Positions 653 through 19,493 of a stretch of 64,000 nt of DNA are shown here, one piece after another. The translations under genes and the position numbers were made by a program. Position 1 is the first letter of the stretch; each line of letters starts with the position of its first letter. Under the pieces are notes generated by a model. The model worked only from the letters and a program-made list of their open reading frames with translations, had not been told where the DNA came from and did no database searches. The DNA is from Streptomyces sp. CB02009 (GTDB taxonomy: Bacteria > Actinomycetota > Actinomycetes > Streptomycetales > Streptomycetaceae), in contig NZ_LIVV01000001.1 in assembly GCF_001905825.1 (NCBI RefSeq), forward strand, positions 413,299 to 477,298. The letters are read 5' to 3'.

Positions 653-777
653 GGGGAGGGAGGGGGCGGAACGCGGAGTGGCATCGCTCTCGGTACGACA
701 GGACCGGGTTCACCCGTGACGGTGGACCCGGCCCGAGCCCCCACGCGACCCCGGCCGGTTCGGGCACGGTGATCCCC

Positions 778-1329: not shown

Positions 1330-1383
1330 CGGCGCACGGGCGCGACCGGGCGCGAACGGGCGCGCCCGTGAGGGGGGAGAGGA

Positions 1384-1890
1384 TCAGGCGGCGTTCGACC
1401 CGGGTTCCACGGATTCGAGGGCCTCCTCGGCCCGCTTGGCCATCTCGTCCTCCGGGACGTCCTCGATGTGCGAGGCGACGTTCCAGCGGTGCCCGAAGGG
1501 GTCCTCGAACTGGCCGGTGCGGTCGCCGTAGAACTCGTTCTTGACCGCCGACAGTTCCTTCGCGCCCCGCGCGAGGGCGCGGGCGAAGACGGCGTCGACG
1601 TCCGACACGTACACGTGCAGGGTGATCGGCGTGCCGCCGATCGTGGTGGGGGAGCGGAACCCGAGCTCCGGGAACTCGTCCGCGACCATGATGACCGAGT
1701 TCCCGACGGCCAGCTCGGCGTGGCCGATCCTGCCGCCCGGGGCCGGCATCCTCATGCGCTCCTCGGCGCCGAGCACGTCCACGTAGAAGTCGATCCCGGC
1801 CGCGGCCCCGTCGACACAGAGGTACGGCGTGACCCGCGGATACCCCTCGGGGATGGGCTGTACGGTCACGGTCTCCGCCTTTCCCGGCAC
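1384..1890 (-). CDS. VOC-superfamily (glyoxalase/PhnB-like) protein
   Basis: This 168-residue protein begins QPIPEGYPRVTPYLCVDGAA, the typical opening of PhnB-like members of the vicinal oxygen chelate superfamily, followed by IDFYVDVLGAEE, RIGHAELAVGNSVIMVADE and DPFGHRWNVASH. Two beta-alpha-beta-beta-beta modules are apparent, with a candidate metal ligand His in GHAEL and another in FGHRW. Members include lactoylglutathione lyases, dioxygenases and antibiotic-binding proteins; the substrate is not evident here. It is transcribed away from the phosphatase gene to its right, across about 380 bases. The start is the GTG/ATG region at 1890; a start at the VQPIPEG segment would shorten it by about eight residues. 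Confidence 0.8.
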   Translation of the reverse strand: MPGKAETVTVQPIPEGYPRVTPYLCVDGAAAGIDFYVDVLGAEERMRMPAPGGRIGHAELAVGNSVIMVADEFPELGFRSPTTIGGTPITLHVYVSDVDAVFARALARGAKELSAVKNEFYGDRTGQFEDPFGHRWNVASHIEDVPEDEMAKRAEEALESVEPGSNAA

Positions 1891-2046
1891 GGCGGCCGCC
1901 GTCGACCGCCCTCTCCGCCCACTGATATCCCGGCCTCCGAACCACGCACCGAAGCCGCGCGGCGGCCGACGACGGGATGCCCCGAAGAGCGGCAGCGGCC
2001 GACCGGCCGGTGACGGTGCACGACGGCCGGCCGGCGGAGGCGCAAA

Positions 2047-2097
2047 CCGTCGGCCCCGCCTCGGCGCGGCGGAGGCGTGCGCCGTCGGCCCCGCCTC
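2047..2097 (+). repeat. two direct 16-bp repeats in a 380-bp divergent intergenic region
   Basis: The 16-mer CCGTCGGCCCCGCCTC occurs at 2047-2062 and again at 2082-2097. GGAGGC between the copies can pair with either GCCTCC end, so alternative hairpins are possible. The stretch 1891-2273 separates the VOC gene (minus) from the phosphatase gene (plus) and must hold both promoters. I see no convincing -10/-35 pair apart from an AT-richer patch near 2130-2140 (GAATAT). Confidence 0.5.
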
Positions 2098-2273
2098 CGC
2101 CGCGCGGGTGCCGGGTGGGCGACGTATCGTCCGAATATGCGTGACGAGCGCGTATCCCGCCGTCGACCGCGCTCCGGGCCGCCGGGCCCGGGCACGTGGT
2201 CCGGTGGGCGCCGCCGCGCTCCGCGCCCGGACCCGCGCGGTGCCGTGTCGGCCACCGCGGGCGGGTGAGACCC

Positions 2274-4697
2274 GTGGGCGGGACCGCGGGTGACGGCACC
2301 GGGGGTGGCGGGACCGCGGGCAGCGGGCCCGAGGACGTCTTCGCCGACGGCCGGATGGCCGCCGTGCTCACCGGTCTCATGCGGGACACCGAGGCCTCGG
2401 TGGGTCTCGTCTATCTGCTGATCCCCGGGGACCGGATGCTGCGCCTCGTGCTCATCTCCGGCCTGTCCCGGGAGATCGCCGCGCCCTGGGTGCGGATCCC
2501 GGTCGACGCGCCGATCCCGGTCGCCGACGCCATGCGCGAGCGGAAGCTCGTATGGCTGAGCGGCCTGCAGGACATCGCCCACCGCTATCCGCGGATCGGG
2601 ATCGTGCTGCCGTACGACTTCATGCTGGCGGCCGCCCCCATCGCCGACGACACCACCGTATGGGGCGGTGTCGTGCTGCTCTGGCCGGTCTCGCACGCGC
2701 CGGAGCTCGACGCGCGCGAGCAGGAGACGCTCGACGCCCACTGCCGCCTGTCGGCCCGGCTGCTGCGGCGGGCCGCCGACCAGGATCCCCCGCCGCCGCA
2801 CCCCACCGAACCGTACGTCGTCCACCCCGAGCGCCCCTCCGAGGCCGACCCGGCGCTCGCGGCGGCCGCTCTGGACCTCGCGGAGCGGCTGCCGGTGGGG
2901 TGCTGCGCCCTGGACCTCGACGGACGCATCACGTTCATCAACACCGCCGCCGCCGACCTGGTGAACGCCGGTTCGACCGCGCTCCTCGGGAAGCGTCCGT
3001 GGGAGACGCTGCTGTGGCTGAACGACCCCGCCTTCGAGGACCGGTACCGCGCCGCGGTCGTGACCCGGCGGCCGACGTCGTTCACGGTGCTGCGACGGTC
3101 GGCGGCACCGCTGCTGTTCGAGCTGTATCCCGACGAGACCGGCATCAGCGTGCTCATCACCCCGAAGGACGACGGGACGCCGCCCCACGACGGGCCGCCC
3201 GGACCGCAGGACGGGGCTGTTCCGTACGAGGGATCCGTGCGAGGCTCCGCGGCTCCTCCCGGAACCCCACCCGCCTCCGTGTCCCCACTCGCCTCCGGGA
3301 TCTCATCCGCAGCCGGGACCGCCCCCGCCTCCGGGACCGGCCCTGCCTCCGGGACCGCCCCCACCTCCGGGACCCCACCTGCCTCCGCGACCGCCCCCGG
3401 CTCGGCCGCGCCGTCCGGCCGTGTGCCTCCCGCCGCCCCCGCGTTCGCCTCCGTCCCGACCCTGCCGAACCGCCCCGGCGAGCCGGTCGGGGCGACGGCC
3501 GTCTACCAGCTGATGCACCTGGCGGCGTCCCTGGCCGAGGCGGCCGGCGTGCGCGACGTCGTCGATCTGGTCGCCGACCAGATCGTGCCCGCGTTCGGCC
3601 CTGAGGGCCTCGTCCTCCTGAGCGTCGACGAGGGCCGACTGCGCGTCATCGGCCACCGCGGCTACAGCGACGCGTTCGTCGACCACTTCGACGGCAAACC
3701 GCTCACGGCGCCGGTCGCCGACGCGCAGGTGCTCTCCACCGGCGTCCCCGTCTTCTACCCCACCTACGAGGACCTCCGCCGCGCCCACCCCCAGTCCCCG
3801 CGCTACGAAGGGCGCAACGCCTGGGCGTTCCTGCCGCTGATCGCCTCCGGGCGTCCCGTGGGCTCGCTGGTCCTGTCGTACGGACAGCCGCGCCCCTTCC
3901 CTTCGGCCGAGCGCGCGCTGCTCACCTCGCTGGCCGGGCTCATCGCCCAGGCCCTGGACAGGGCCCGGCTGTACGACGCCAACCGCTCGCTCGCCCGGAG
4001 CCTCCAGAACGTCCTGCTGCCGCACCGACTGACCCCGCTCCCCGGTCTCGACGTCGCGGCCCGCTATCTGCCGGCGGGGCACGGCATGGACATCGGCGGC
4101 GACTTCTACGACCTCGTCCGCGCGACGCCCACCTCCGTCGTCGCCGTCATCGGCGACGTCCAGGGACACAACACGACCGCCGCCGCGCTCATGGGGCAGG
4201 TGAGGACCGGCGTCCACGCGCACGCGACGGCCGGCGCGTCGCCCGGCGACATCCTGGCGCGCACCAACCGGCTGCTCGACGACCTCGAGGCCGACCGCTT
4301 CACCAGCTGCCTGATCGCCGAGTTCGACCTCGCGCGACACCGGCTGCGGCTGGCGAGCGCGGGCCATCCGCCGCCCCTCCTGCGCCGGGCGGACGGCAGC
4401 GCCGAGGTGCTGGAGGTCCCACCGGGGCTCCTCCTGGGGATCGCGACGGACGTCACGTACGACACCATGGAGCTGCCCTGGGAACCCGGTTCCGTCCTCG
4501 CCCTGTACACGGACGGGCTCGTCGAGGCACCGGGCCTCGACATCGGTACGGCCATGGAGGACCTGGCGGAGCGGCTCGGGGTGTCGGGCGCCGCCGACCT
4601 GGACCGGCTCGCGGACGAGCTGACCCTGCACGTCAGGGATGCCGCACACAGGACCGACGACGTGGCTCTCCTCCTGGTCCGGCGACCTATGCTCTGA
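2274..4697 (+). CDS. PAS/GAF-domain SpoIIE-type serine phosphatase (PP2C family)
   Basis: About 807 residues if GTG 2274 is used; an upstream in-frame GTG at 2196 would add 26 Arg-rich residues that look non-domain. Order: N-terminal GAF-like sensor (~20-175), PAS (~185-285, LDGRITFINTAAADL), a Pro/Ala/Gly/Thr linker with repeated ASGTA-like units (~320-385), second GAF (~410-565), then a SpoIIE/RsbU PP2C domain (~580-805) with MDIGGDFYDLV, AVIGDVQGHN, SAGHPPPLL and ALYTDGLVEA, which supply the metal-binding aspartates. Family members dephosphorylate anti-sigma antagonists in partner-switching modules. No kinase domain is fused and no anti-sigma gene is adjacent. The next gene begins 3 bases after its stop. 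Confidence 0.88.
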   Translation: MGGTAGDGTGGGGTAGSGPEDVFADGRMAAVLTGLMRDTEASVGLVYLLIPGDRMLRLVLISGLSREIAAPWVRIPVDAPIPVADAMRERKLVWLSGLQDIAHRYPRIGIVLPYDFMLAAAPIADDTTVWGGVVLLWPVSHAPELDAREQETLDAHCRLSARLLRRAADQDPPPPHPTEPYVVHPERPSEADPALAAAALDLAERLPVGCCALDLDGRITFINTAAADLVNAGSTALLGKRPWETLLWLNDPAFEDRYRAAVVTRRPTSFTVLRRSAAPLLFELYPDETGISVLITPKDDGTPPHDGPPGPQDGAVPYEGSVRGSAAPPGTPPASVSPLASGISSAAGTAPASGTGPASGTAPTSGTPPASATAPGSAAPSGRVPPAAPAFASVPTLPNRPGEPVGATAVYQLMHLAASLAEAAGVRDVVDLVADQIVPAFGPEGLVLLSVDEGRLRVIGHRGYSDAFVDHFDGKPLTAPVADAQVLSTGVPVFYPTYEDLRRAHPQSPRYEGRNAWAFLPLIASGRPVGSLVLSYGQPRPFPSAERALLTSLAGLIAQALDRARLYDANRSLARSLQNVLLPHRLTPLPGLDVAARYLPAGHGMDIGGDFYDLVRATPTSVVAVIGDVQGHNTTAAALMGQVRTGVHAHATAGASPGDILARTNRLLDDLEADRFTSCLIAEFDLARHRLRLASAGHPPPLLRRADGSAEVLEVPPGLLLGIATDVTYDTMELPWEPGSVLALYTDGLVEAPGLDIGTAMEDLAERLGVSGAADLDRLADELTLHVRDAAHRTDDVALLLVRRPML
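3290..3400 (+). repeat. degenerate ~18-bp tandem repeats inside the phosphatase linker
   Basis: Units built on GCCTCCGGGACC recur about every 18 bases within the linker of the phosphatase and encode (T/P)ASGTA-like steps. Unit length is a multiple of three, so copy-number change would keep the frame and only alter linker length. Confidence 0.6.
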
Positions 4698-4700
4698 CGT

Positions 4701-5384
4701 GTGGTGAACCCCAGCGATCCCCAGGACTTCGCGGCCGGCCCCGTCGCCTCCGCCCCCGAGCTGCTCGCCCTGCACGCCGTACGGCTCAAGGGCGTTGCCG
4801 ACGACGACGAGGCGGCGGCGCGCTACGGCCTCGACGCCGAGGTCGTACGGGAAGCGCTGCTCGACCACGAGGCGAGGGGCTGGGTGACCCGCCGGGCGTT
4901 CGCCGGGACACGGGGGTGGACGCTCACCGACTCCGGCCGGGCCGAGGGGGAGCGGCAGCTCGCCGGGGAGCTGGCGGCGGCGGGGCTCGGACCCTTCGTA
5001 CGGGAGCGGTACGAGACGTTCCTCGCCCACAACGCCCGCTGTCTCCGGGCCTGCACCGACTGGCAGGTGCGGCCCGACGGAGCGGGGCGGCTCGCGGTCA
5101 ACGACCACGGGGACGCGGCGTGGGACGGGCGGGTGCTCGACGAACTCACCGCACTGGGCGGGGTCATCGACCTGCTGTCGGACGAGCTGGGGACGCGGAT
5201 CGGCCGACTCGGCGGCTACGGCCCCCGCTTCACCGGCGCGCTCGCCCGTGTCCGGCGCGGTGAACTGTCCTGGGTCGACCGGGTCAAGGAGGACTCCTGC
5301 CACACCGTGTGGATGGAACTCCACGAGGACCTGCTCGCCACCCTCGGCATCGCCCGCGGCGAGGAACCCGCGGTGCGCGCCTAG
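4701..5384 (+). CDS. winged-helix-like putative transcriptional regulator coupled to the phosphatase
   Basis: This 227-residue soluble protein starts at GTG 4701 (a second GTG follows at 4704), 3 bases after the phosphatase stop, so the two are probably co-translated. Residues ~15-80 look like a winged helix: ELLALHAVRLKGVADD, then a helix ending VVREALLDHEARGWVTRRAF and a wing TRGWTLTDSGRAEGE, which is MarR-like. The C-terminal ~130 residues are helical with conserved-looking NDHGDAAWDGRVLDEL and LGGYGPRFTGALARV and no metal motif. I do not recognise a characterised homologue. A ligand-sensing regulator role is inference from the N-terminal fold only. Confidence 0.6.
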   Translation: MVNPSDPQDFAAGPVASAPELLALHAVRLKGVADDDEAAARYGLDAEVVREALLDHEARGWVTRRAFAGTRGWTLTDSGRAEGERQLAGELAAAGLGPFVRERYETFLAHNARCLRACTDWQVRPDGAGRLAVNDHGDAAWDGRVLDELTALGGVIDLLSDELGTRIGRLGGYGPRFTGALARVRRGELSWVDRVKEDSCHTVWMELHEDLLATLGIARGEEPAVRA

Positions 5385-5398
5385 CCCGTGGGCGAGCT

Positions 5399-5419
5399 GC
5401 CGTCCGGTGCCCGGACGGC
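5399..5419 (+). terminator. hairpin terminator after the winged-helix gene
   Basis: Perfect 9-bp stem GCCGTCCGG/CCGGACGGC with a 3-base loop, beginning 15 bases after the stop codon at 5382-5384. There is no T tract, as is common in high-GC actinomycetes. Confidence 0.6.
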
Positions 5420-5454
5420 GGCGTTGCCGTCGGCCCCGCCGTCGTCCGGTGGAA

Positions 5455-5477
5455 AACATGGGGGGATGTTCCCCATG
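5455..5477 (+). promoter_or_regulatory. nested inverted repeats upstream of lanM, candidate operator
   Basis: AACAT-N6-ATGTT (5455-5470) overlaps CATGGGG-N7-CCCCATG (5457-5477) in an AT-richer island about 75 bases before the lanM start. Two overlapping dyads in a lead region suggest a protein-binding site. There is no direct evidence for the binding protein. Confidence 0.35.
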
Positions 5478-5551
5478 CCGCGCAGGCCTGCCTCGTACCA
5501 GGATCGGACCTGGCCCGGGAGCGGTGGGCCGGGTCGGTGCGAGGAGGGGCG

Positions 5552-8500
5552 ATGGCGGTGAGGGCCGGGCACGAGCGGGCGGCGACGTCGCTGTCGGCGA
5601 TCGAGCGGTGGTGGGACAGCGGACTGGTCCGCGACGACGGGGACGCGGAACGGCCGGACTGGGCCGTGCTGGCCGAGGAGGCCGTGGCCGCCGCGCCGGA
5701 TGCGGCCGAATCCGGCGCGCCCGAGGGGGAGTTGACCGGACTCAGCGGATTCGAGTGGGTCCTGCGGACGTTCACCGGCCGCGCCGGGGCGCGGTGGGAG
5801 CGGCGCCTGTCGGGCCGGGCGCGCGGCCTCGTGGACATGGCGGCCGTACGGCACGACCTGGAGCGGCAGATCGGCGGCAGGCTGGCACGGGCCGCCGCCC
5901 GGACGCTGGTCCTCGAACTGCACGAGGCGCGCGGCGCCGGGAGGCTCGAAGGCGACGACTCCCGGGCCCGGTTCCGGGACTTCCTGACGCGTACCGCTTC
6001 CCGGCGCGGACTCTCCGACCTGCTGGCCGGGCGTCCCGTACTCGCGCGGATCCTCGGCCGGGCGGCGCTCGACGCGGCGGACGCGATGGCCGAGGCGCTG
6101 GAACGCCTCGCGGACGATCGCACCCTCCTGGCGGCCTCTGGCCTCCTTGCCGAGTCCGGCGGCGGCCCGGGGCCGCTCGTGGGCATCGAGCCCGGCGCCG
6201 GCGACGGCCACCGGGGCGGGCGCACCGTGATGCTGCTGCGCTTCGCCGACGGCACGCGGCTGGTGTACAAGCCGCGCCCCCTCGCCGTGCACCGCCACTT
6301 CAACGACCTCGTCGCCTGGTTCAACGGGCTTCCCGGCACCGTGGACCTGCGTACCCTGCGGCTGCTCGACCGGGACGCCTACGGATGGGTGGAGTTCGTC
6401 GCCGCCCGCCCCTGCGCCTCCGCCGCAGAGATCGGGACGTTCTACCGCCGCCAGGGCGCGCTGCTCGCGCTGCTGCACCTGCTCGACGGGACCGACCTGC
6501 ACCACGAGAACCTGATCGCCGTCGGCGCCCACCCGGTCCTCGTCGACGTGGAGACCCTGTTCCACCCGCCCCTGCCCGGCTCCGGCACCTCCGACCCCGC
6601 CGCCCGCGCGCTCCACGACTCGGTCTACCGGGTGGGGTTGCTGCCGCAACTCCTGGTCGGCGACCACAGCGCCCTGGACGTGTCCGCGGTCGGCGGCGGC
6701 CGTGCGGGCGTGTCGCCCGTGGAACGCGCGGACTTCGCCGACGCCGGTACCGACCGGATGCGACTGGTGCGCAGGCCGGGGACGTTCGGCGAGTCCGCCA
6801 ACCTGCCGCGGACGGCGGCCGGCGGGCCCGTCGACCCGGGTGCGCACGTCGACGCGCTCTGCGCCGGCTTCCGGGCCGGGTACACGGCCATCGGTGAAGC
6901 GGTGGACGAACTGCGCGGGGACTCCGGCCTGCTGGCCTCGTTCGCGGAGGACGAGGTGCGGGTGGTCGTGCGTCCCACCTGGGTGTACTCGCTGCTGCTC
7001 GACGAGTCGACGCATCCCGACCTCCTGAAGGACGCGCACGCGCGGCAGCGAGTCCTGGAGACCCTGCGGACCGAGCAGTTCGGGCCGGTCCTCCCGCCCG
7101 CCGTGATCGACGAGGAGATCGCCCAACTCTGGGCGGGTGACGTACCGTTGTTCACCGCGAAGCCCGGTCACCGCGACCTCAGGGGCGCACCGGGTCGACC
7201 CGCGGTGGACCGCGCGGACCTGCCCGGCACCGCGCGCGTCGCCGCGAAGCTCGACGCCCTGGACACCGTCGACCGGCAGGACCAGGAGTGGATCGTACGG
7301 GCCGCGATGGCGACGACCTCCCGCGTCCCCGCGCACCGGCCGGCCGCGGGGCGGCGCACCCTGACCGCGGGACGCGCCCCCGAGCCGGAGCGGCTGCTCT
7401 CGGCCGCCCGGTCCGTCGGGGACCAGCTGGTCTCCCTCGCGTACCGCGACGGGCCGCGCAGCAACTGGATCGGTCTGGAGCTCCTCGACGACCGCTACTG
7501 GCGGATCGGTCCGATGGCGGCCGACCTGGCCGACGGCTACACCGGGCCGGCCCTGTTCCTGGCCCAGTTGGCGGCTCTCACCGGAGCCGGTCACTACGCC
7601 GAGGCCGCCCGTACGGCCCTGACGCCGGTGCCCGGACTGCTCGAAGCGCTGCGCGCCAGGCCCGAGGAACTCGGCGCGGTGGGCTCGGGTGCCTTCTCCG
7701 GCCTCGGCGGCATCGCGTACGCCCTCGCCGAGACGGCCCGGCTGCTGGACGATCCGGAGGTCGGCGCCTGGGCGTCGGGCGCCCTGCGGCTGGCGGCCGC
7801 GGCGACCGGGGCCGAGCCGGGGTACGGTGTGGGCGCCGGGCTCGCGGGCGGCCTGGTGGCCCTGTCGACCGCGCGCGAACGCCGCACGGGTACGGGCACG
7901 GGTACGGGCACGGGTGCGGGGAGCGGAACGGGTTCGCGTACGGGAGCGGGCACGAGGGGCGTACCGGGCCTTGTTCCGGAGATCGTGGGGGCCGCGCGGG
8001 CCTGTGCGGACCGGCTGGTCGTCGCCGTCCATGCCGCCGCCACCGGTCCCGCCGATACCGAACTCGCCTCCCTCTCCAGGGGCTTCACGGAGGGGACGGC
8101 GGGGATCGGATGGGCCTTGTTGAGGTTCGCCGAGGCGGAGGAATCCGCCGCCGGCCTCGCCGGTGAGCGTGCCGAGGACACCGTCGGGGGCGGCGCGGGG
8201 CTCCGTGCCGCCGAGCGGTACCGGCTCGCGGGGCTGTCCGCGATCCGGGCGGCCGTCGGGGCGGCCGCGCCGGGCGGTGGACCGGGGCCGGGCGGAGACC
8301 GCAGGGGAGTCTCCGCCCCCACCCCGGGCGGCGGACCGGCGGACACGGCGAGGGCCTCGGCCTGGTGCCGGGGAGAAGCGGGCGTCGCACTCGCCGTGCT
8401 GGACGCACCGGGCGCCCTGGCCGACCCGCACCTCGCGGCCTGGGCGCGGGGGACCGCCGAGCGGCTGGGACAGAACGGGGCTGCTCCCGACGACAGCCTC

Positions 8501-8764
8501 TGCCACGGCGAGGCCGGCCTCTGCGAACTCCTCGGCCACACCGCGCTCCCCGAAGCGCGACCCCACTGGCTCCGCCGAGCAGGGGCTCTCCTCGCCTCCG
8601 TCGAGGAGAGCGACGCCAGGAGCGGCGCCCCGGACGGAGTCCCGCACCCCGGTCTGCTGACCGGTCTCGCGGGGATCGGCCACGGACTCCTCCGGGCGGG
8701 ATTCCCGGAGCGCGTACCGTCGCTCCTCCTCCTGCGCACCACGGAGGGGCACCAGGACCGCTGA
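5552..8764 (+). CDS. class II lanthipeptide synthetase (LanM)
   Basis: About 1070 residues from ATG 5552, which follows a strong GAGGAGGGG ribosome-binding site; longer upstream frames are low-complexity. The N-terminal DUF4135 dehydratase domain shows LVYKPRPLAVHRHFNDLVAW (~236), TDLHHENLIAVG (~313) and HPVLVDVETLF, the kinase-like elements that phosphorylate and eliminate Ser/Thr. The C-terminal LanC-like cyclase (~610-1060) keeps GLGGIAYAL, GTAGIGWALL and both zinc-ligand motifs, WCRGEAG (~936) and CHGEAG (~982), so cyclisation chemistry should be intact. A Gly/Thr/Ser linker repeat interrupts the cyclase near residues 780-800. The only small gene beside it encodes a cysteine-free peptide. 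No dedicated LanT transporter or protease is fused. Confidence 0.92.
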   Translation: MAVRAGHERAATSLSAIERWWDSGLVRDDGDAERPDWAVLAEEAVAAAPDAAESGAPEGELTGLSGFEWVLRTFTGRAGARWERRLSGRARGLVDMAAVRHDLERQIGGRLARAAARTLVLELHEARGAGRLEGDDSRARFRDFLTRTASRRGLSDLLAGRPVLARILGRAALDAADAMAEALERLADDRTLLAASGLLAESGGGPGPLVGIEPGAGDGHRGGRTVMLLRFADGTRLVYKPRPLAVHRHFNDLVAWFNGLPGTVDLRTLRLLDRDAYGWVEFVAARPCASAAEIGTFYRRQGALLALLHLLDGTDLHHENLIAVGAHPVLVDVETLFHPPLPGSGTSDPAARALHDSVYRVGLLPQLLVGDHSALDVSAVGGGRAGVSPVERADFADAGTDRMRLVRRPGTFGESANLPRTAAGGPVDPGAHVDALCAGFRAGYTAIGEAVDELRGDSGLLASFAEDEVRVVVRPTWVYSLLLDESTHPDLLKDAHARQRVLETLRTEQFGPVLPPAVIDEEIAQLWAGDVPLFTAKPGHRDLRGAPGRPAVDRADLPGTARVAAKLDALDTVDRQDQEWIVRAAMATTSRVPAHRPAAGRRTLTAGRAPEPERLLSAARSVGDQLVSLAYRDGPRSNWIGLELLDDRYWRIGPMAADLADGYTGPALFLAQLAALTGAGHYAEAARTALTPVPGLLEALRARPEELGAVGSGAFSGLGGIAYALAETARLLDDPEVGAWASGALRLAAAATGAEPGYGVGAGLAGGLVALSTARERRTGTGTGTGTGAGSGTGSRTGAGTRGVPGLVPEIVGAARACADRLVVAVHAAATGPADTELASLSRGFTEGTAGIGWALLRFAEAEESAAGLAGERAEDTVGGGAGLRAAERYRLAGLSAIRAAVGAAAPGGGPGPGGDRRGVSAPTPGGGPADTARASAWCRGEAGVALAVLDAPGALADPHLAAWARGTAERLGQNGAAPDDSLCHGEAGLCELLGHTALPEARPHWLRRAGALLASVEESDARSGAPDGVPHPGLLTGLAGIGHGLLRAGFPERVPSLLLLRTTEGHQDR

Positions 8765-8767
8765 GCC

Positions 8768-8850
8768 GCACCACGCACGACCCGCCACCGCATCTCACGA
8801 AGGGCGCACCACGTACGGCCGCACCACGCACGACCGCACCACGCACGACC
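8768..8850 (+). repeat. 15-bp tandem repeats between lanM and the candidate precursor
   Basis: The unit GCACCACGCACGACC occurs at 8768-8782, 8821-8835 and 8836-8850, with a variant GCACCACGTACGGCC at 8806-8820, so three units are directly in tandem. The array lies in the 159-base gap in front of the precursor-like gene. It could be a multi-site operator, since SARP proteins bind short direct repeats, or simply slippage sequence. Confidence 0.7.
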
Positions 8851-8923
8851 GCAGGGCACGCACCACCCGCACCATCCACGGCACCACCACCACTCCCGCG
8901 GACCCGAAGGACGAGTGAGGACC

Positions 8924-9124
8924 ATGCAGATCAGTGACTCGGTGACGTACGTCAACGGCGGTGCCGGCGCGGAGGGCGCGGCCCAGGACGACCCGGTGGG
9001 CGAGGTCACCCTCGGCACCGCGGGGATGCTGGGGCGGCGCAGTCGGCTGCTCCGCACGGCCGATCTGGACACGGTCGCCACATGGGACATGCCGTACACC
9101 ACGGGCACCATCACGGTGTCCTGA
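8924..9124 (+). CDS. candidate LanM substrate peptide, 66 aa, cysteine-free
   Basis: ATG 8924 follows GTGAGG a few bases upstream; an in-frame GTG at 8915 would add three residues. The peptide starts MQISDSVTYVNGG, has an acidic/neutral middle, a basic patch GRRSRLLR, and a Thr-rich end (TADLDTVATWDMPY, then TTGTITVS). Position right after lanM and a hairpin 13 bases past its stop are what a lanthipeptide precursor would show. It contains seven Thr/Ser in the last 22 residues but no Cys anywhere, so lanthionine rings cannot form within it by the usual route. It may be dehydrated only, or another precursor may lie outside. Homology was not tested. Confidence 0.6.
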   Translation: MQISDSVTYVNGGAGAEGAAQDDPVGEVTLGTAGMLGRRSRLLRTADLDTVATWDMPYTTGTITVS

Positions 9125-9137
9125 CGCGAGGGCGGAC

Positions 9138-9162
9138 GTGGGCCGGGGGCTTCCCGGCCCAC
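9138..9162 (+). terminator. hairpin after the candidate precursor gene
   Basis: Perfect 10-bp stem GTGGGCCGGG/CCCGGCCCAC with a 5-base loop, 13 bases downstream of the precursor stop. Such hairpins often stabilise or attenuate precursor transcripts, leaving reduced read-through into the regulator that starts at 9198. Confidence 0.6.
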
Positions 9163-9197
9163 TGCCGTGCACGAAAAGGATCAAGTAGCCTGCGGAC

Positions 9198-12100
9198 ATG
9201 CGTGCGACGTCGTCGGTCATCGTGGGGCGGGACGCCGAGATCGGGTTACTCGACGAGGCCCTGGAGAGCGCCCGGAGGGGCGCCGGACGGGCCGTGTTCC
9301 TCGTCGGCGAGGCGGGGATCGGAAAGTCCCGGCTGGCCGGCGAGTGCGCTCTTCGCGCCTACGACCGGGACATGCCGGTGCTGCGCGGCCGCGCCACGTC
9401 CACCGGGCTCGTCGTCCCCTTCCGGCCGCTGGTCGAGGCGCTGTCCTCGCGGTTCAGGGCGGCCGGCGCACCGAACGATCCGGAACTCGACCCGTACCGG
9501 CCCGCGTTGGCCGGCCTCGTGCCGGAATGGCGGGCCGCCGCGACGGCACCCGGCTACACGATCTCGCTCGTCGAACTGGCCGAGGCGCTCCTCAGACTAC
9601 TTGCCGTGCTGGGGCGCGAACGCGGCTGCGCGGTCCTCCTGGAGGACCTGCACGACTCCGACACCGAGACCATCGCGGTCGTCGAGTACGTCGCCGACAA
9701 CGTGGCGGACCTCCCGGTCCTGCTGGTCGGCACGCTCCGCCCCGATCCGGGACCGGCGCTGGACCTCGCGCTCGCCGCCGAGCTGCGCAACACCGCCTCC
9801 GTCACGGAACTTGCGCCGCTGGACGAGACCGCCGTACGGCACATGGTGGACGCCTGTCTCGACGCGGCCCCGGGAGAGGTGCCCCCGGCCGCGCACCGGC
9901 ACCTCTCCCGGCGCGCGGGCGGGAACCCGTACCTCGTGGAGGTGCTGCTGGCCGACCTGCTGGACATGGGACGGCTGAGCAGGGCGGACGATGGATGGCT
10001 CCTCGCCGATCACGGCGAGGAGACGGTTCCCACGGGAGCGGTACGCAGCTGGGCGCGCCGGCTCGCCCGGCTCGACGAGCCGGTGCGCGAACTGCTCCTC
10101 ATCGCGGCGACGCTCGGCGGCCGGTTCTCGGTCGGGGCGCTGAGGGTGGTGACCGGGCTCGACGACCGGGCCCTCTTCGCCCACCTCCGGTCCGCGTCCG
10201 AGGCCGGGATCATCGCCCCCGACGGTGCGGCCCACGACCACTACACCTTCCGCCACGTGCTGACCGCGGACGCGCTCAGAGCGTCGTTGCCGCCCGCCGA
10301 GCAGGCCGCGCTCGCCCGCCGCGCGGCCCAGGCGATCGAGGAGTCCGCAGGCTCGTCGCTCTCCCGCGACCGTCCCGGCGAACTCTCCGGGGAGCAGAGC
10401 CAGCTGGTGGCCACGCTCCGCCTCGCGGCCGGTGACAAGGTCGCGGCCTCCCGGCAGTTCGCCCAGGTCGGCCGGCAGATGCTGGACGCCGGCGCCTCCG
10501 GATCGGCCGCCGTGCTCCTCGAACGGGCCCGGGGCCTCGCGGCCGACGGGGAACGCGACGACGTCACCGTGCAACTGGCCATCGCGCAGGCCGAGTCCGG
10601 GCGGACCGACCTGGCATCCGCACTGCTCGACGACCTGGCGCCGGTGCCCGTCGGCTCCCCTGCGGCGGAGGAGCGGGCCCAGGCACACACCCAGGTCGCC
10701 TGGGTCGCGACGATGGCCGAGCAGCAGCAGGAGGCCCGCCGCCGGATCCGGGCGGCCCGCGCCCTGCTCGGGCCCGAGCCGCGTCCGGAGCAGGAGGCGG
10801 CGCTCGTGGTCGTCGAGGGGCACCTGGCGCTGCTGCCGGAGCAGGACGGACGGGACGGCGAGGACGACCGGGGGAGCCCGGCCGGCCGGGGCCGAGAAGA
10901 CGGCGGACGGGGTGGAGAAGGCGGCGGACCGGGCCGAGAGGGTGGCGGACGGGGCGCGGCGGGCCGGGCCGGCCGTGAGCGCCTGAAGGAGGCGGAACGT
11001 TCCGCCAGGAGCGCCGCGCTCACCGCGGAGCAGCGCGGCCGGCCCGTCGTCGCCTGCCAGGCATGGCAGCTCCTCGCCCTGCTGTCCCGGCAGCGCGGGT
11101 TCGACGAGGCCGACGCCTGCCTGGTCCGGATGCTGGAGGTCGCCGAGAAGCACCGGCTCGCGGTGTCACGGGCCGAGGCGCTGGTACGGCTCGGCACCAA
11201 CGCGTTCATGCGGACCGGGGAGGCGACGCAGCTGGAGACCGCCCGCGCGGCGGCGCACGAACTCGGCTCCCTGAGCGTGCTCCAGACCGTCGACGGACTG
11301 CTCGCCATGCAGAGCGTGCTCGCCGGGCGATGGGACCGGGCCCGGGAGATCGTCGACCGTTCCGTGGAGGCGAGCGCCCGCCTCCAGAACCTGTCGGCGC
11401 ACCGCTACCTGCTCCTCGTCGACGCCACGCTCGCCGCCCACCAGGGGCGGGGCCGCGAACAGGAGCGAGCCCTCGTCCGGTTCCGCAGGGCGGGCGGCGA
11501 GGAGTCGATGCTCGTCCCCCTGCAACGCGGACTGTGCCAGGCCGTCGGCGCGCTCATGGCCGAGGACCGCAAGCGGGCCACGGCCGAGCTGGACGCGGCC
11601 CTCGCCTGGGAGCGGGAGCATCCGAGCTTCTTCTACCTCAGCGGGCGGTACGGGCTCCGCCCGCTGCTGCGCATCCTGGACGGCGATCACCCTGGTGGGG
11701 GCGAGGACTTCGGCGGAGCCCGGGAGGCGTACCGGGAGGCGCTCGCCTCACCCGGCGGGCAGTTGGCCTGGAACCGGATGTTCCTCGGGTTGGCGGACGC
11801 CGTCCTGCGCGGCCGGGGCGGCGACCCGATCGGCGCGCGGCGCGCGGTGGAGGAGGCCGGCCGTGTCGCGGCGGTGTTCCCGCACGTCTGGCATCTCGCC
11901 CTGCGGCTGGTCGCGGAGGCGGCGCTCGCCGACTCCTGGGGCGAGCCGGTCGCCTGGCTGCGGACGGCGGAGGAGTACTTCCACGAGGCCGGCGTACAGC
12001 CGGTGGCCGGTGCCTGCCGGGCGCTCCTGCGCCAGGCGGGCGTCAGTGTGCCGCAGCGCAGAGGTGGCCGGGAACGGATCCCGGCCGAGCTGCGCACCGC

Positions 12101-12338
12101 CGGTGTCACGCCGCGCGAGTACGAGGTGTTCGTGCTGCTCATGGAACGTCCGGGCAATCTCCAGATCGCCCAGCGCCTGTGCATCTCACCGAGGACGGTG
12201 GAGAAGCACATGGCGAGCCTGATGGCCAAGACCGGCTGTGCGGACCGCTCCGCGCTGTGCGCGCTGTCGGCGGAGCGGGCGGAGGACGGGGCGCCGGCCG
12301 GGCCGGCCCGGATCGCGTTCCGGCAGCCGTCGGCCTGA
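9198..12338 (+). CDS. LAL-type LuxR-family regulator with AAA/NB-ARC-like ATPase; contains a TTA codon
   Basis: 1046 residues from ATG 9198. Residues ~34-41 form a Walker A (GEAGIGKS), followed by an AAA-type ATPase with Walker B-like CAVLLEDLHDSD. A TPR-like helical middle is interrupted near 545-590 by a Gly/Arg/Glu-rich linker. The C-terminus (~965-1030) is a LuxR/GerE helix-turn-helix: TPREYEVFVLLMERPGNLQI, then SPRTVEKHMASLMAKTGCAD. This is the large ATP-binding regulator (LAL) architecture of many pathway-specific activators. Codon 17 (9246-9248) is TTA, so translation should depend on the bldA leucyl-tRNA. It follows the precursor-like gene by 73 bases and probably controls this cluster. 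Confidence 0.88.
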   Translation: MRATSSVIVGRDAEIGLLDEALESARRGAGRAVFLVGEAGIGKSRLAGECALRAYDRDMPVLRGRATSTGLVVPFRPLVEALSSRFRAAGAPNDPELDPYRPALAGLVPEWRAAATAPGYTISLVELAEALLRLLAVLGRERGCAVLLEDLHDSDTETIAVVEYVADNVADLPVLLVGTLRPDPGPALDLALAAELRNTASVTELAPLDETAVRHMVDACLDAAPGEVPPAAHRHLSRRAGGNPYLVEVLLADLLDMGRLSRADDGWLLADHGEETVPTGAVRSWARRLARLDEPVRELLLIAATLGGRFSVGALRVVTGLDDRALFAHLRSASEAGIIAPDGAAHDHYTFRHVLTADALRASLPPAEQAALARRAAQAIEESAGSSLSRDRPGELSGEQSQLVATLRLAAGDKVAASRQFAQVGRQMLDAGASGSAAVLLERARGLAADGERDDVTVQLAIAQAESGRTDLASALLDDLAPVPVGSPAAEERAQAHTQVAWVATMAEQQQEARRRIRAARALLGPEPRPEQEAALVVVEGHLALLPEQDGRDGEDDRGSPAGRGREDGGRGGEGGGPGREGGGRGAAGRAGRERLKEAERSARSAALTAEQRGRPVVACQAWQLLALLSRQRGFDEADACLVRMLEVAEKHRLAVSRAEALVRLGTNAFMRTGEATQLETARAAAHELGSLSVLQTVDGLLAMQSVLAGRWDRAREIVDRSVEASARLQNLSAHRYLLLVDATLAAHQGRGREQERALVRFRRAGGEESMLVPLQRGLCQAVGALMAEDRKRATAELDAALAWEREHPSFFYLSGRYGLRPLLRILDGDHPGGGEDFGGAREAYREALASPGGQLAWNRMFLGLADAVLRGRGGDPIGARRAVEEAGRVAAVFPHVWHLALRLVAEAALADSWGEPVAWLRTAEEYFHEAGVQPVAGACRALLRQAGVSVPQRRGGRERIPAELRTAGVTPREYEVFVLLMERPGNLQIAQRLCISPRTVEKHMASLMAKTGCADRSALCALSAERAEDGAPAGPARIAFRQPSA

Positions 12339-12445
12339 TCCGAAGTGGGACGGCGGTCGCCCCGCCGCCCACCCACCCGCCCGGTCCGGTGTGGTCCGGC
12401 GACGTGGGGGCTCGTCGGCCCCGGGATGGGGGCCGTACCCGATCC

Positions 12446-12466
12446 CCTGGGGGCGGGTCCCCCAGG
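12446..12466 (+). terminator. hairpin between the LAL and SARP genes
   Basis: CCTGGGGG and CCCCCAGG form an 8-bp stem around a 5-base loop, about 110 bases after the LAL stop. The rest of 12339-12579 is GC-rich leader for the SARP gene with no other structure I trust. Confidence 0.45.
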
Positions 12467-12579
12467 ACCCGTTCCGCGACGGCACGACTGTGAGGGTTCG
12501 GTACCGATGTGTGAAGGTCCGGCGCGGCGGATCATCGAGCGGACCGACCAACTCCCGTCACCACACGGAGGTTCGCTCG

Positions 12580-14451
12580 ATGCCGAGTCCGTCCGCGCGG
12601 CCCGTCGCCTCACCCGGCACACTCCGGTTCACCGTCCTCGGCCAGCTCGCGGCCTTCCAGGGCGAACGGGCCCTGCCGCTGGGCCCGTTGAAGCAGCGCA
12701 TCATACTGGCGACGCTCCTGGCATCCGCCAACTCACCGGTGTCCGTGGACGCGTTGACCGAGGCCGTCTGGCCGGAGGAGCCCCCTCGTACCGCCCGCAA
12801 GAACATCCAGGTGTACGTCAGCGCCCTGCGGGCGCTCTTCGGGCCGGACGACCGGGAGGCGCCGGACCCGCCACGGCTCGCCCACACCGGAGGCGGATAC
12901 GTCCTGCGCGCGGCGGAGGAGGAACTCGACCTGCTGAGGTTCCGCTCCCTGGTCCGGGCCGCCGAGGGCCAGCCGCCCCAGGTGGCCGCACGCCTGCTGG
13001 GACAGGCCCTCGACCTGTGGCAGGGACCGCCGCTGGGCGACGACCTCCGGCAGTCGCCCACGCTGGCCGAGGAGGCCGAGCGGCTCGGGCTGCGGCACGT
13101 GACGGCCTACGAGAGCTGGGCGGAGGCCGAGTTGGAGCTGGGCGGCGCGCCCGCCGTGGTCGAGGGGCTGCGCGACCTGGTGGAGCGGCACCCGCTGCGG
13201 GAGCGGCTCCGCTCGGCCTGGATGTGCGCGCTGAGCGGCTCCGGCCGGCAGCCGGAGGCGCTCGCGGTCTACGACGACTACCGGCAGCTGCTGGCCAGGG
13301 AGCTGGGCCTGGAGCCGAGCGGCGCGATGGCCGCCCGCTACCGGCAGATCCTCAGGGGGGACGCCCGGGCCGCCGGGGCGGGCACGGCCGGCGGGCCGCC
13401 GGGCGGGAGACCCGCGGCCGCCTCGTCGAAGCCGACCGTCCTGCTGCCGCCCGACCTGTCCGACTTCACCGGACACGGCGAGGAACTCCACGACCTCCTG
13501 GACCTGTTGGAGCACGGCGAGGGGGTCGCTCCGGGCGAGGCGGGAGACCCGGGCGCCGTCGTGCTGCTGTCCGGCCCCGCGGGATCGGGGAAGACCGCGC
13601 TGGCGGTCAGAGCCGCCCACCTCCTCGCGGGCCGATTCCCCGAGGGGCGGCTCTGCGTCTCCCTGCGGGAGGCGGACGGACGCCCCCGATGTACGTCCGC
13701 CGTCCTCGCGGAACTCGGCGAACGGACGGGGCGGACCGGACTGTCGACCCCCGAGGCGTGGCGGGAGTGGCTGGGACGGCACCGGGTCCTGGTCATCCTC
13801 GACGACGTACCCGAGGAGCGCGCCGTACGAGCGCTGCTCCCGTGCGGCGGACAGGGCAGGGTGCTGATCACCGCGCGCGGTCAACTGGGCGGCCTCGCCC
13901 CGGTGCGGCGGATCACCGTTCCGCCGCTGGACACGGCCGAGGCCGTGCAACTCCTCGCAGGGCTCGTCGGCCCGCGCCGGGTGCGGGCCGACCGGGAGGC
14001 CGCGCTGCGGATCGTACGGGCGTGCGGCGGTTCGCCGCTCGCGGTCCGGGTGAGCGGGATGCGGCTCGCGGTGCTCCGCCACGTACCGCTGCGGGAGTTC
14101 GCCGACCGGTTGACGGATCCCAGCGGCGCCCTGGACGAACTGACCGCCGGGGACGTGTCCGTACGGCAGCGGCTGGCCCACGGCTGGGAGACGCTCCCCG
14201 AGCAGCGGGGCAGGGACGCGGGCCGGCTGGCCGCGGGCACCGGGGACGGCCCCTTCGGTCTGACGGAGGCGGCGGAGGCGCTCGGCTGCGACGAGCGGCA
14301 CGCGGTGCGGGTGGTGGAGGCGCTCATCGACGCCGGCATGGTCACGTCGCCGGGCGGTGAGGTCACCGCACACGCGGCGCAGTACGACATGCCCCACCTG
14401 ATACGGCTGTACGCACGGGGCGCGGGTCACGGGACGCCGGTGCTGACGTAG
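12580..14451 (+). CDS. SARP/AfsR-family regulator with NB-ARC domain
   Basis: 623 residues from ATG 12580, preceded by GGAGG with about 8 bases of spacing. Residues ~15-95 match an OmpR-like winged helix of SARPs (LRFTVLGQLAAF, PLGPLKQRIILATLLASAN, VDALTEAVWPEEPP). Residues ~98-245 are the bacterial transcriptional activation domain (ALDLWQGPPLGDDL, GRQPEALAVYDDYRQLLARE, LGLEPSG). A P-loop GPAGSGKT at ~331 starts an NB-ARC segment (VLVILDDVPEE, GGSPLAVRV). The protein ends after this ATPase and lacks the TPR tail of full AfsR. It lies between the lanM set and the minus-strand operon and is the likely cluster-situated activator, possibly below the LAL regulator. Targets are inferred. Confidence 0.88.
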   Translation: MPSPSARPVASPGTLRFTVLGQLAAFQGERALPLGPLKQRIILATLLASANSPVSVDALTEAVWPEEPPRTARKNIQVYVSALRALFGPDDREAPDPPRLAHTGGGYVLRAAEEELDLLRFRSLVRAAEGQPPQVAARLLGQALDLWQGPPLGDDLRQSPTLAEEAERLGLRHVTAYESWAEAELELGGAPAVVEGLRDLVERHPLRERLRSAWMCALSGSGRQPEALAVYDDYRQLLARELGLEPSGAMAARYRQILRGDARAAGAGTAGGPPGGRPAAASSKPTVLLPPDLSDFTGHGEELHDLLDLLEHGEGVAPGEAGDPGAVVLLSGPAGSGKTALAVRAAHLLAGRFPEGRLCVSLREADGRPRCTSAVLAELGERTGRTGLSTPEAWREWLGRHRVLVILDDVPEERAVRALLPCGGQGRVLITARGQLGGLAPVRRITVPPLDTAEAVQLLAGLVGPRRVRADREAALRIVRACGGSPLAVRVSGMRLAVLRHVPLREFADRLTDPSGALDELTAGDVSVRQRLAHGWETLPEQRGRDAGRLAAGTGDGPFGLTEAAEALGCDERHAVRVVEALIDAGMVTSPGGEVTAHAAQYDMPHLIRLYARGAGHGTPVLT

Positions 14452-14489
14452 CGGGGGAGGGGGGCGGCGGTACGCGGGGTGCCTGTGGG

Positions 14490-14518
14490 GCCCGGCCGGA
14501 GGCGTGTCCCGGCCGGGC
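14490..14518 (+). terminator. bidirectional hairpin between convergent SARP and prolyl oligopeptidase genes
   Basis: Perfect 10-bp stem GCCCGGCCGG/CCGGCCGGGC with a 9-base loop, 39 bases after the SARP stop and facing the end of the peptidase gene. The remaining 14519-14663 holds short degenerate direct repeats (CACCGAGCGCGAC-like) and nothing coding that I can support. Confidence 0.55.
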
Positions 14519-14663
14519 CGGGCCCGCCACCGAGCGCGACTCCACCGAGCGCGACCTCACCGGGCGCCGCCCCCGAGCACGGCGCACCAAGCACGGCCCA
14601 CCAAGCGGCGCCCGCCTGGCGCGGCGCCGACGCGTCGAGGCCGTGACGCGCCGGCGCCGGCGG

Positions 14664-16994
14664 TCACCGCGGCGGAGCACCCGCGGCGGAGCCCGGAGCC
14701 GAGCCCGGAGCCGAGCCCGGAGCCGAGCCCGGAGCCGGTAGGCCCACGTGGGATGCCAGGAAGGCCAGGCACTCGGCCTGGAGTGCCGCCGCGCGGGACG
14801 CGGACCGTTCCCCGTGGCCGACTCCGTGCTCGAGCCGCAGCAGGACCGGGCCGGTGCCCGACGTGGCGTGCTGGAGCGCGGCGCACATCTTGCGGGCGTG
14901 CAGCGGGTCGGTGCGGGTGTCGCCGTCCGCGGCGGTCAGCAGCACCGCCGGGTACGCGGTCCCGGGCACGACCCGGTGGTACGGCGAGTAGCCGAGAAGC
15001 ACCGGCAGCCGCGCCGGGTCCTGGGCGCTGCCGTACTCCGGCGTCCAACTCGGGCCGAGGCCGGACAGTTCGTAGCGGACCATGTCCAGGAGCGGGGACG
15101 AGCACACCACGGCGGCGTACTTCTCCGGCTCCTGCGTGAGGGCCGCTCCGACCAGCAGCCCGCCGTTGGAGCCGCCCATGATGGCGATCCGGCCCGGCTC
15201 GGTCCAGCCCGCCTCGATCAGCCGGTCGGCCGCCGCGGCGAAGTCGTCGAAGGTGTTCTGCTTGTGCGCGCCGCTCCCGGCCCGGTGCCACGCCTCGCCC
15301 TCCTCGCCGCCGCCGCGAAGGCCCGCCCAGGCGAACACCCCGCCCGCCCCGACCCAGGCCAGGACCTGCGCCCGGTAGCGGGGCGACATCGTGCGGCCGA
15401 AGCCGCCGTACCCCGTGAGCAGTACCGGGCGCGGCCGGTCCGGCCGCCCGCCGGGGGAGATGACGAACATCCGGACCGTCGTCCCGTCCCGCGACGGGAA
15501 CGCGACCTGGCGGGTCACCGCGCCGCCCGTCCCCGGACGGCCCGCCGCCGGACCACCCACCGCCCGGCCGTCGGCCGCCCGACCGTCGGTCGCCGGGCTG
15601 TCCGGATCGCCCGGCGCATGGGCACCCCCGTCCCGTTCCCAGCGGGTCAGGCGGTGCGTACGCGCGTCGAAGCGGAGGACGCGCACCGGCGTGACGAAGT
15701 CCGTGTACGCGAACCACGCCTCGTGACCACCCGACGCCACGGCCGTGAAATCGCCGACCGCGCCGGTTCCGGGGAGCGGCACCGTGGCCACCTGCCGGCC
15801 CTCCACCAGATCGTGCAACGTCACCTCGGCCACGGTGTCGCGGGTCCAGGCGGCCAGGCCGAGCGGGTTCTTGAGCTCGGGACCCGCGAGCACGACCAGG
15901 TGGGTGAGCACCGCGTCCGGCCGTTCGGGGACGACCTCGTGCCAGGCGTCCGGGCCCAGGTGGACCTCGTCCGGCCGACAGGCGACGATGCGACCGCGCG
16001 CCGCGCCGCGGTCGGTGCGGAGCCACACCCGGTCCGCCGGGCCCGTACCGGGCACGGCATGCAGCCTGGTCGCCGCCCCCATGCCCTCCTGGACCGGCCG
16101 CAGCAGCGGACGGTCGAGCGGCGCGGCCGACAGGTCGGCCAGGTGGACGTCGGTCCCGCGGCCGGTGCCGAGCGTGGCCGTGATGGCGAGCCAGCGGCCG
16201 TCCTCGGTCACGGAGACGCTGTAGAACTGGGTCTTGTCCCGCCCCTCGCCGAAGACCACGGCGTCCGTCTCCGGTGACGTGCCGACCCGGTGCAGGCAGA
16301 CGCGGCGGTGGTAGCGCTCCTCCCCGGGGTTCAGCCGGGGGTCCAGCTGCCGGACGTAGTAGAACGCCCCGCCGCCGGGAAGCCAGCCCACCGACGACTT
16401 CCGCACCCGGTCCAACGGCCCGTCCACGACCTCGCCGGTGGCCACGTCGATCACCCGGAGCAGCGAGTCCTCCGTGCCGTTCCGGGACACCTGGCAGGCC
16501 ACCAGATCGCCCTCCACGGAGGGCTCCCAGGCGTCGAGGACGGTACGGCCGGACGGATCGAGGACGCTGGGATCGAGCAGTACGCGCTCCGAAGCAGAAG
16601 CAGAAGCAGAAGCAGAAGCAGAAGCAGAAGCAGAAGCAGAAGCAGAAGCAGACGTCCCCGTTCCGGCGTCCGCCACCACCAGGACCGGGTGCTCCTGGCC
16701 GGCCTCCTGCCGCAGCCAGAACACCCTGCCGCCGCGGACCTTGGGCGACCGGACACGATCGCCGTCGCCGAGCGCCGAGACCGCCGCCTCCCACTGCTCC
16801 AGACCGGGCAGGGCGGTCCGTTCCGCGGCGTACAGGGCCTCCTGCTCGGCGCTCCAGCGGCGCGTCTCGGCGGTCTCGGCGTTCTCCAGCCAGCGGTACG
16901 GGTCCGGGACACGCACCCCGTGGAGTTCCTGGACGACGTCCTGCCGCTCGGCGTGCGGGTACGGGCGCCGTGTCCGTCGGGCGTCGGTGGTCAC
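14664..16994 (-). CDS. prolyl oligopeptidase family serine peptidase (S9A), with a (Ser-Ala)10 insertion
   Basis: 776 residues from GTG 16994, with GGGAG upstream; its start overlaps the MFS stop (GTGA). The N-terminal beta-propeller begins with the S9A signature DPYRWLENAETAETRRW. The C-terminal alpha/beta-hydrolase domain has the nucleophile in GGSNGG (~609), Asp in AADGDTRTDPLHARKM (~690) and His in EHGVGHGE (~725), so the triad looks complete. No signal peptide, so it is cytoplasmic. Two repeats mark it: (Ser-Ala)10 from a 6-bp microsatellite and a C-terminal APGS repeat. S9A peptidases remove leaders in some lanthipeptide pathways (FlaP/AplP type); as last gene of this operon it could do the same for the 39-aa peptide, which is inference. 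Confidence 0.88.
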   Translation of the reverse strand: MTTDARRTRRPYPHAERQDVVQELHGVRVPDPYRWLENAETAETRRWSAEQEALYAAERTALPGLEQWEAAVSALGDGDRVRSPKVRGGRVFWLRQEAGQEHPVLVVADAGTGTSASASASASASASASASASASERVLLDPSVLDPSGRTVLDAWEPSVEGDLVACQVSRNGTEDSLLRVIDVATGEVVDGPLDRVRKSSVGWLPGGGAFYYVRQLDPRLNPGEERYHRRVCLHRVGTSPETDAVVFGEGRDKTQFYSVSVTEDGRWLAITATLGTGRGTDVHLADLSAAPLDRPLLRPVQEGMGAATRLHAVPGTGPADRVWLRTDRGAARGRIVACRPDEVHLGPDAWHEVVPERPDAVLTHLVVLAGPELKNPLGLAAWTRDTVAEVTLHDLVEGRQVATVPLPGTGAVGDFTAVASGGHEAWFAYTDFVTPVRVLRFDARTHRLTRWERDGGAHAPGDPDSPATDGRAADGRAVGGPAAGRPGTGGAVTRQVAFPSRDGTTVRMFVISPGGRPDRPRPVLLTGYGGFGRTMSPRYRAQVLAWVGAGGVFAWAGLRGGGEEGEAWHRAGSGAHKQNTFDDFAAAADRLIEAGWTEPGRIAIMGGSNGGLLVGAALTQEPEKYAAVVCSSPLLDMVRYELSGLGPSWTPEYGSAQDPARLPVLLGYSPYHRVVPGTAYPAVLLTAADGDTRTDPLHARKMCAALQHATSGTGPVLLRLEHGVGHGERSASRAAALQAECLAFLASHVGLPAPGSAPGSAPGSAPGSAAGAPPR
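14697..14742 (-). repeat. 12-bp tandem repeat encoding the APGS tail of the peptidase
   Basis: The unit GAGCCCGGAGCC recurs nearly four times and, read on the minus strand, encodes (Gly-Ser-Ala-Pro) steps at the C-terminus of the oligopeptidase. It lies beyond the catalytic domain, so its length is likely neutral. Confidence 0.7.
16591..16650 (-). repeat. hexanucleotide microsatellite (GAAGCA)10 encoding Ser-Ala repeats
   Basis: Ten perfect copies of GAAGCA (TGCTTC on the coding strand) run from 16591 to 16650 inside the oligopeptidase gene and give an uninterrupted Ser-Ala dipeptide tract. The ~50% GC of this tract contrasts with its surroundings. Because the unit is six bases, expansion or contraction keeps the frame. 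Confidence 0.9.
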
Positions 16995-19491: not shown

Positions 19492-19493
19492 GG

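Follow-up and report, generated by a model that had tools for sequence, protein, structure and literature searches.

The window analyzed in this study is a stretch of 64,000 nucleotides from Streptomyces sp. CB02009 (NCBI RefSeq assembly GCF_001905825.1, contig NZ_LIVV01000001.1, positions 413,299 to 477,298 of the forward strand). Three consecutive genes in it are the subject of this work. The first encodes a LanM-type synthetase, the second a short precursor peptide without Cys, and the third a LuxR/LAL-type regulator. The initial annotation, made from the sequence alone, had described an intact LanM next to a Cys-free peptide of 66 residues. The adjacency was borne out. The term intact holds for the dehydratase residues and for the WCRG and CHG motifs, but not for the cyclase, in which a catalytic His and an Asp are lost. 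The features are collected in Table 1.

Table 1 Positions of the genes, residues and signals of the locus in the window. Residue counts refer to the alignment of 147 cassette LanMs and to 15 ordinary LanMs.
Feature	Position	Strand	Details
LanM-type synthetase, 1070 aa	5552..8764	+	ATG at 5552; dehydratase at about residues 60-560, LanC-like cyclase at about 600-1061
G759, at the third-repeat Asp position (probably NisC Asp141); Asp lost	7826..7828	+	Asp in 13/15 ordinary and 3/147 cassette LanMs
E847, replacing the catalytic His of GFSHG (NisC His212, CylM His835)	8090..8092	+	LanM alignment
C939, zinc ligand (WCRG), kept	8366..8368	+	141/147 cassette LanMs, 6 gaps
C984 and H985, zinc ligands (CHG), kept	8501..8506	+	140 and 141 of 147 cassette LanMs, 5 gaps each
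Cys-free precursor peptide, 66 aa, DMPYTT near the C-terminus	8924..9124	+	ATG start; 28-row alignment
10-pair hairpin 3' of the peptide gene	9138..9162	+	z -3.6 for 9122-9180
TAGCCT, -10-like box	9186..9191	+	6 nt upstream of the regulator ATG
LuxR/LAL-type regulator, 1046 aa	9198..12338	+	AAA_16 ATPase, TPR-like middle (match below cut-off), GerE helix-turn-helix
AfsR/SARP-like regulator	12550..14451	+	start uncertain; BTAD, NB-ARC; neighbour in part of the family
Prolyl oligopeptidase, candidate leader peptidase	14664..16990	-	start approximate; PF02897, PF00326

The DUF4135 and LanC-like domains of a class II lanthipeptide synthetase are both present in the window LanM (PF13575, 403 bits; PF05147, 85 bits), and TIGR03897 scored 627 bits (cut-off 304). 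It is the one DUF4135 protein in its own genome of 9.2 Mb. The WCRG and CHG motifs lie at residues 938-941 and 984-986. A structure was predicted from a 14-row alignment (mean predicted local distance difference test score, pLDDT, 70.4; predicted template modelling score, pTM, 0.55) and serves as a basis for the fold only, not for site geometry. The predicted structure was matched to LicM2 (6st5; Z 31.2, 5.4 Å, 860 residues) and to NisC (2g02; Z 26.7, 3.3 Å, 344 residues), and the LanC fold is retained in this model.

The window peptide has no Cys at all. Its final 22 residues contain seven Thr and one Ser, eight such residues and not the seven first counted. Matches to the peptide at E 0.01 or better were obtained in 40 of 295 genomes of the same genus, and 28 of these, the window's own counted, hold a true short homologue. 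The other 12 (loci L058 and L060-L070; E 4e-4 to 8e-3) were rejected as chance matches, with no LanM nearby and no such short gene. The nonsynonymous to synonymous ratio (pN/pS, uncorrected counts) was below 1 in all 21 pairs formed by the window peptide and six near relatives. Nine positions are invariant in the 28-row alignment (P24, G26, G34, L36, R39, L43, P57, T59 and T60), and P(W/F/Y)TT stands close to the C-terminus of the 28 aligned peptides. With the profile built from these rows, the peptide was found in 40 of the 200 genomes searched within the bacterial family (4 of 17 genera); in the window's own genome the profile gave one match. In the 40 regions from this family-wide search the N-terminal part is alike (..WK.P..R....DHPAGEI.L....LGRR..LL in many), whereas the C-terminal part is highly variable, yet rich in Thr and Ser.

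The LanM, the Cys-free or Cys-poor peptide and the LuxR/LAL regulator form a fixed cassette. By gene clustering, 68 flanked loci were compared, 28 from the same genus and 40 from the family-wide peptide profile. The LanM adjoins the peptide in 66 of them. A homologue of the LAL regulator is present in all 68 and lies within 0.7 kb of the peptide in 67; in L086 it is 4.7 kb away. A second set comes from named genomes, in which a search with a LanM alignment of 14 rows gave 252 relatives; 80 of them were kept, from Streptomyces, Kitasatospora, Saccharothrix, Kibdelosporangium, Actinosynnema, Rhodococcus, Micromonospora, Kutzneria, Actinophytocola and Catellatospora. Contig ends truncate seven of these loci, which were set aside. 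In the remaining 73 LanM-found loci, the regulator was present in 72 and the peptide in 70. The two sets overlap, and the distinct counts are 127 LanMs and 118 peptides. The conserved LanM-peptide pairing that the initial annotation proposed to look for is found in related genomes, and neither outcome it named as refuting, an unconserved peptide or a Cys-containing precursor consistently paired with this LanM, was observed. The regulator, absent from that annotation, is no less constant than the LanM.

The regulator was found in none of 12 loci of ordinary LanMs (8-19 kb each). Cys-rich candidate precursors were present in 10 of these 12 loci, which are from the same bacterial class (loose open reading frame filter). 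In a tree of 98 LanMs, 83 cassette LanMs fall on one side of a branch with an approximate likelihood ratio support (SH-aLRT) of 99. The comparison set of 15 ordinary LanMs is small, includes one partial frame and has long branches.

The exceptions to the linkage are few. L037 has the peptide without an adjoining LanM, and a LanM lies at the edge of another contig in that genome, possibly as the result of a broken assembly. L082 holds the peptide and regulator without LanM, and L207, in the same genome, a LanM without either. This Kitasatospora genome (L082, L207 and L194) carries a full cassette, a peptide-regulator pair and a lone LanM; the last two may be a split cassette that works in trans. 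In L196 and L198 the LanM and regulator are present and no peptide match above 14 bits was found; L196 has a weak 6-bit candidate with an HP.G motif 3' of the LanM.

Cys-free peptides are the rule in the cassette. Among 118 distinct peptides from 138 loci, 89 have no Cys, 25 have one and 4 have two; 94 have none in the final 25 residues. The sporadic Cys residues stand at differing positions. Ser and Thr make up 30% of the final 15 residues of these peptides, compared with 14.5% elsewhere. The TIGR03898 model for mersacidin/lichenicidin leaders does not match the window peptide; one of four relatives tried (L107) passes it, with 23.6 against the cut-off of 23.5. The cassette peptides of Saccharothrix (L201, L202, L205, L206, L209, L210, L212, L213, L215) differ from the window type and have a hydrophobic stretch followed by a short Ser/Thr tail, for example ARALAGLTLAVGAYAVVAA..STSVSAPV.

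The dehydratase residues were compared with those of CylM. Phosphorylation by CylM needs K274, D347, H349, N352 and D364, and elimination needs D252, H254, R506 and T512, of which T512 is critical (PMC4550811). The corresponding residues are all present in the window LanM, as K240, D315, H317, N320 and D332 and as D218, H220, R470 and T476. They were then followed in the 147-row cassette alignment, from which the LanM of L147 was omitted as too short. R470 is conserved in 147/147; D315, H317, N320, D332, D218 and H220 are each conserved in 146, with one gap; K240 is conserved in 137 (9 Arg, 1 gap) and T476 in 137 (10 Ser). As a separate observation, E485 (window 7004-7006) is Glu in 147/147 cassette LanMs and in 2/15 ordinary LanMs.

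The cyclase active site is kept in one part and lost in another. Of the 127 distinct cassette LanMs, 120 retain all three zinc ligands, the Cys, Cys and His of class II, and so does the window LanM. The His of the GFSHG repeat is the proposed enolate protonator (NisC His212, LanCL1 His219, CylM His835; PMC9934072). The window has Glu at this place, as aligned with three GFSHG/GFGHG LanMs, one of which aligns to the GFSHG of LicM2. The His is present in 13/15 ordinary LanMs and in 13/147 cassette LanMs (12/127 distinct); otherwise many different residues are found, and at least five changes of state were counted on the 98-LanM tree. The companion Asp is retained in 3/127 distinct cassette LanMs. 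Its equivalence to NisC Asp141 is probable from repeat order and spacing; when the cyclase of an ordinary LanM was searched against the PDB, NisC was matched over residues 252-334 only, and the sole hit of a stand-alone LanC was a weak one to a different protein. His and Asp occur together in 13/15 ordinary LanMs and in no cassette LanM. NisC variants H212N, H212F and D141N bind zinc and have no cyclisation activity (PMC7296275). Directly after CHG, E987 (window 8510-8512) is Glu in 139/147 cassette LanMs, whereas ordinary LanMs have Asp or other residues, and the zinc Cys is followed by Asp or Glu in 55/147. A retained His was also considered as a marker of Cys-containing substrates, and no association was found (1/11 versus 24/125; Fisher p 0.69). 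A low-complexity insert of GTGTGTG type (window 7890-7965) separates repeats 3 and 4 of the cyclase domain and is missing from three aligned ordinary LanMs.

These data indicate that the cassette probably consists of a LanM-derived dehydratase that makes no lanthionine rings, a Cys-free peptide and a dedicated LuxR/LAL regulator, with an unringed dehydrated peptide as the product. The LanM would recognise the leader-like N-terminal part of the peptide, phosphorylate Thr and Ser in the C-terminal part, and eliminate the phosphate to give dehydrobutyrine and dehydroalanine; dehydration by the cassette LanM is inferred. The predicted product would have no lanthionine because the substrate has no Cys and the cyclase Asp/His pair for thiol addition is lost. 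The cyclase domain may persist as a scaffold that holds zinc and perhaps binds the leader, which is a guess. The product may be a signal or effector, and the constant linkage to the regulator suggests that it is read by, or acts through, this protein. The initial annotation had offered three options: a dehydration-only product, another nucleophile added by the cyclase, and a real substrate elsewhere. The first is best supported because Cys-free precursors are the rule, the dehydratase residues are present, and the cyclase acid/base residues are mostly lost. The second is unlikely, as the loss of the enolate-protonating His speaks against it, and the third is disfavoured.

Several points weigh against this reading. 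The retention of the zinc ligands and the LanC fold is beyond the needs of a dead domain. ThurKC, a class III enzyme without a zinc site, carries Ser and Asp in place of Asp141 and His212, and its cyclase domain still forms rings (PMC10604976), so loss of the pair alone is no proof of lost cyclisation. The pair is also missing in 2/15 ordinary LanMs. A minority of cassette LanMs keep the His, whether or not their peptides contain Cys, and 29 of 118 distinct peptides do contain one or two Cys. E987 might be a new catalytic group. Finally, no constant protease or exporter gene was found in the cassette across the fetched loci.

The same retained zinc site bears on the second option, in which the cyclase adds another nucleophile, either a small thiol such as mycothiol or a peptide side chain, to give a non-lanthionine adduct or ring. 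This is unlikely, though it has precedents: LanCL1 adds glutathione to dehydrobutyrine peptides (PMC9934072), the class III NorKC makes a His-to-butyrine link (PMC10206099), and the rings of ThurKC form without the Asp/His pair (PMC10604976). The intact ligands and the conserved E987 speak for it, and the loss of the enolate-protonating His and its Asp in most distinct LanMs speaks against it. So does the Asp or Glu that often follows the zinc Cys, where the H277D variant of LanCL1 is about 90-fold less active (PMC9934072).

It is improbable that the LanM is a kinase only, with the phosphate staying on Thr and Ser. Ser stands at the place of CylM T512 in 10 of 147 cassette LanMs, which would fit, but the four elimination residues are all present in the window LanM and in most relatives. 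About as improbable is the third option, in which the peptide accompanies the LanM without being its substrate, and a Cys-containing precursor lies elsewhere. Precursors of the cyanotin group are known far from their LanM (PMC7268733). A distant substrate is nevertheless disfavoured here because the genome has a single DUF4135 protein and a single peptide-profile match, the LanM-peptide linkage holds in 66 of 68 loci, and no mersacidin-type leader above the cut-off was found in the genome in a search confined to this leader type; moreover, one relative's leader resembles the mersacidin/lichenicidin family. Least probable of all is that the Cys-containing minority is ancestral and still cyclising and the window locus a decaying lanthipeptide cluster, since, although some ordinary relatives (L117, L118) carry candidate precursors that are rich in Cys and have a similar leader, WKDP..HPAG, the peptide and dehydratase are under constraint and the Cys-free state spans several genera.

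The unringed dehydropeptide can be placed in a wider and more tentative picture, which is possible but doubtful. The cassette would be an actinobacterial signalling cassette, in which a dehydratase-only LanM makes a short unringed dehydropeptide, and the LAL regulator, on reading it, activates its target genes. The chemical mark of the signal would be dehydrobutyrine, and the LanC domain would have turned from enzyme to scaffold. In the window clade, the prolyl oligopeptidase would perhaps cut after the invariant Pro and free the nine residues YTTGTITVS, which is speculative.

The trailing hairpin named in the initial annotation is present. The region 9122-9180 folds with -34.3 kcal/mol, and none of 200 shuffles was equally good. 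Similar hairpins can be read by eye in close relatives of the window and not obviously in every locus. A family-conserved classical terminator was rejected, as the T run is absent and the hairpin is not apparent by eye in every locus; the terminator scan also gave no entry for it. Before the regulator, TAGCCTGCG or a close variant stands directly 5' of the ATG in many loci (by eye), and this box would fit a leaderless promoter. The second-best match to the regulator in its own genome has 32% identity over about 390 residues.

The further neighbours vary. In 27 of 68 loci the retrieved sequence also holds a homologue of the AfsR/SARP-like regulator. Peptidases of the prolyl oligopeptidase type take part in class III leader removal. 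The prolyl oligopeptidase gene was found in 13 of 148 loci, including the eight that make up the window clade (the window and L032-L038), where it is accompanied by a major facilitator superfamily (MFS) exporter; both genes lie a few kb downstream and on the opposite strand. In most loci of a sister Streptomyces group (L039-L057), a LanKC and an MFS gene lie about 5-8 kb past the peptide on the opposite strand, and the LanKC holds the place of the prolyl oligopeptidase. Of 148 loci, 41 have a LanKC in the sequence retrieved around them, as do 33 of the 68 peptide-found loci; in two members checked the LanKC has RamC_N, Pkinase and LanC-like domains. Positions 1-20000 of the window have no LanKC match.

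If the proposed reading is true, the cassette offers a natural test of the role of a LanC domain once ring-making stops. It would also tie LanM chemistry to a specific regulator, which is a testable link to gene control. Lanthipeptide scoring in PMC7268733 drops open reading frames without Cys in the estimated core. Such precursor mining would therefore miss most of this family, which occurs in 40 of the 200 genomes searched within the bacterial family and also in Saccharothrix, Kibdelosporangium, Micromonospora and others.

The cassette LanM is like the class II synthetases CylM and LicM2 in domain order, dehydratase residues, zinc ligands and fold, and it differs from them in the lost cyclase Asp/His. 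Precursors of the mersacidin/lichenicidin type resemble in their leader one cassette family member that passes the leader model; the cassette peptides have no conserved Cys, and the window peptide has no GG site. Linaridins, like the product predicted here, are largely unringed dehydrated peptides, but their dehydratases are of other types. LanCL1 is an example of a LanC fold that meets free dehydroamino acids (PMC9934072), with its catalytic His219 present and that of the cassette LanM replaced. The zinc site of the prochlorosin/cyanotin enzymes is CCC (CCG-type; PMC11251773), compared with CHG in the window LanM. The closest known systems are the LanM/LanKC clusters, in which LanM-linked precursors without Cys were described and not treated as lanthipeptides (Zhang et al. 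2015 via PMC7268733). Both have a LanM beside a Cys-free precursor; the window differs in having no LanKC match, and the constant neighbour here is the LAL regulator. The cassette family likely overlaps with these clusters because a LanKC is nearby in part of its loci. Searches of open-licence papers showed neither a constant LAL regulator nor missing cyclase acid/base residues described for such LanMs. Cys-free LanM precursors are already known, and the loss of the cyclase residues and the link to the regulator are apparently new.

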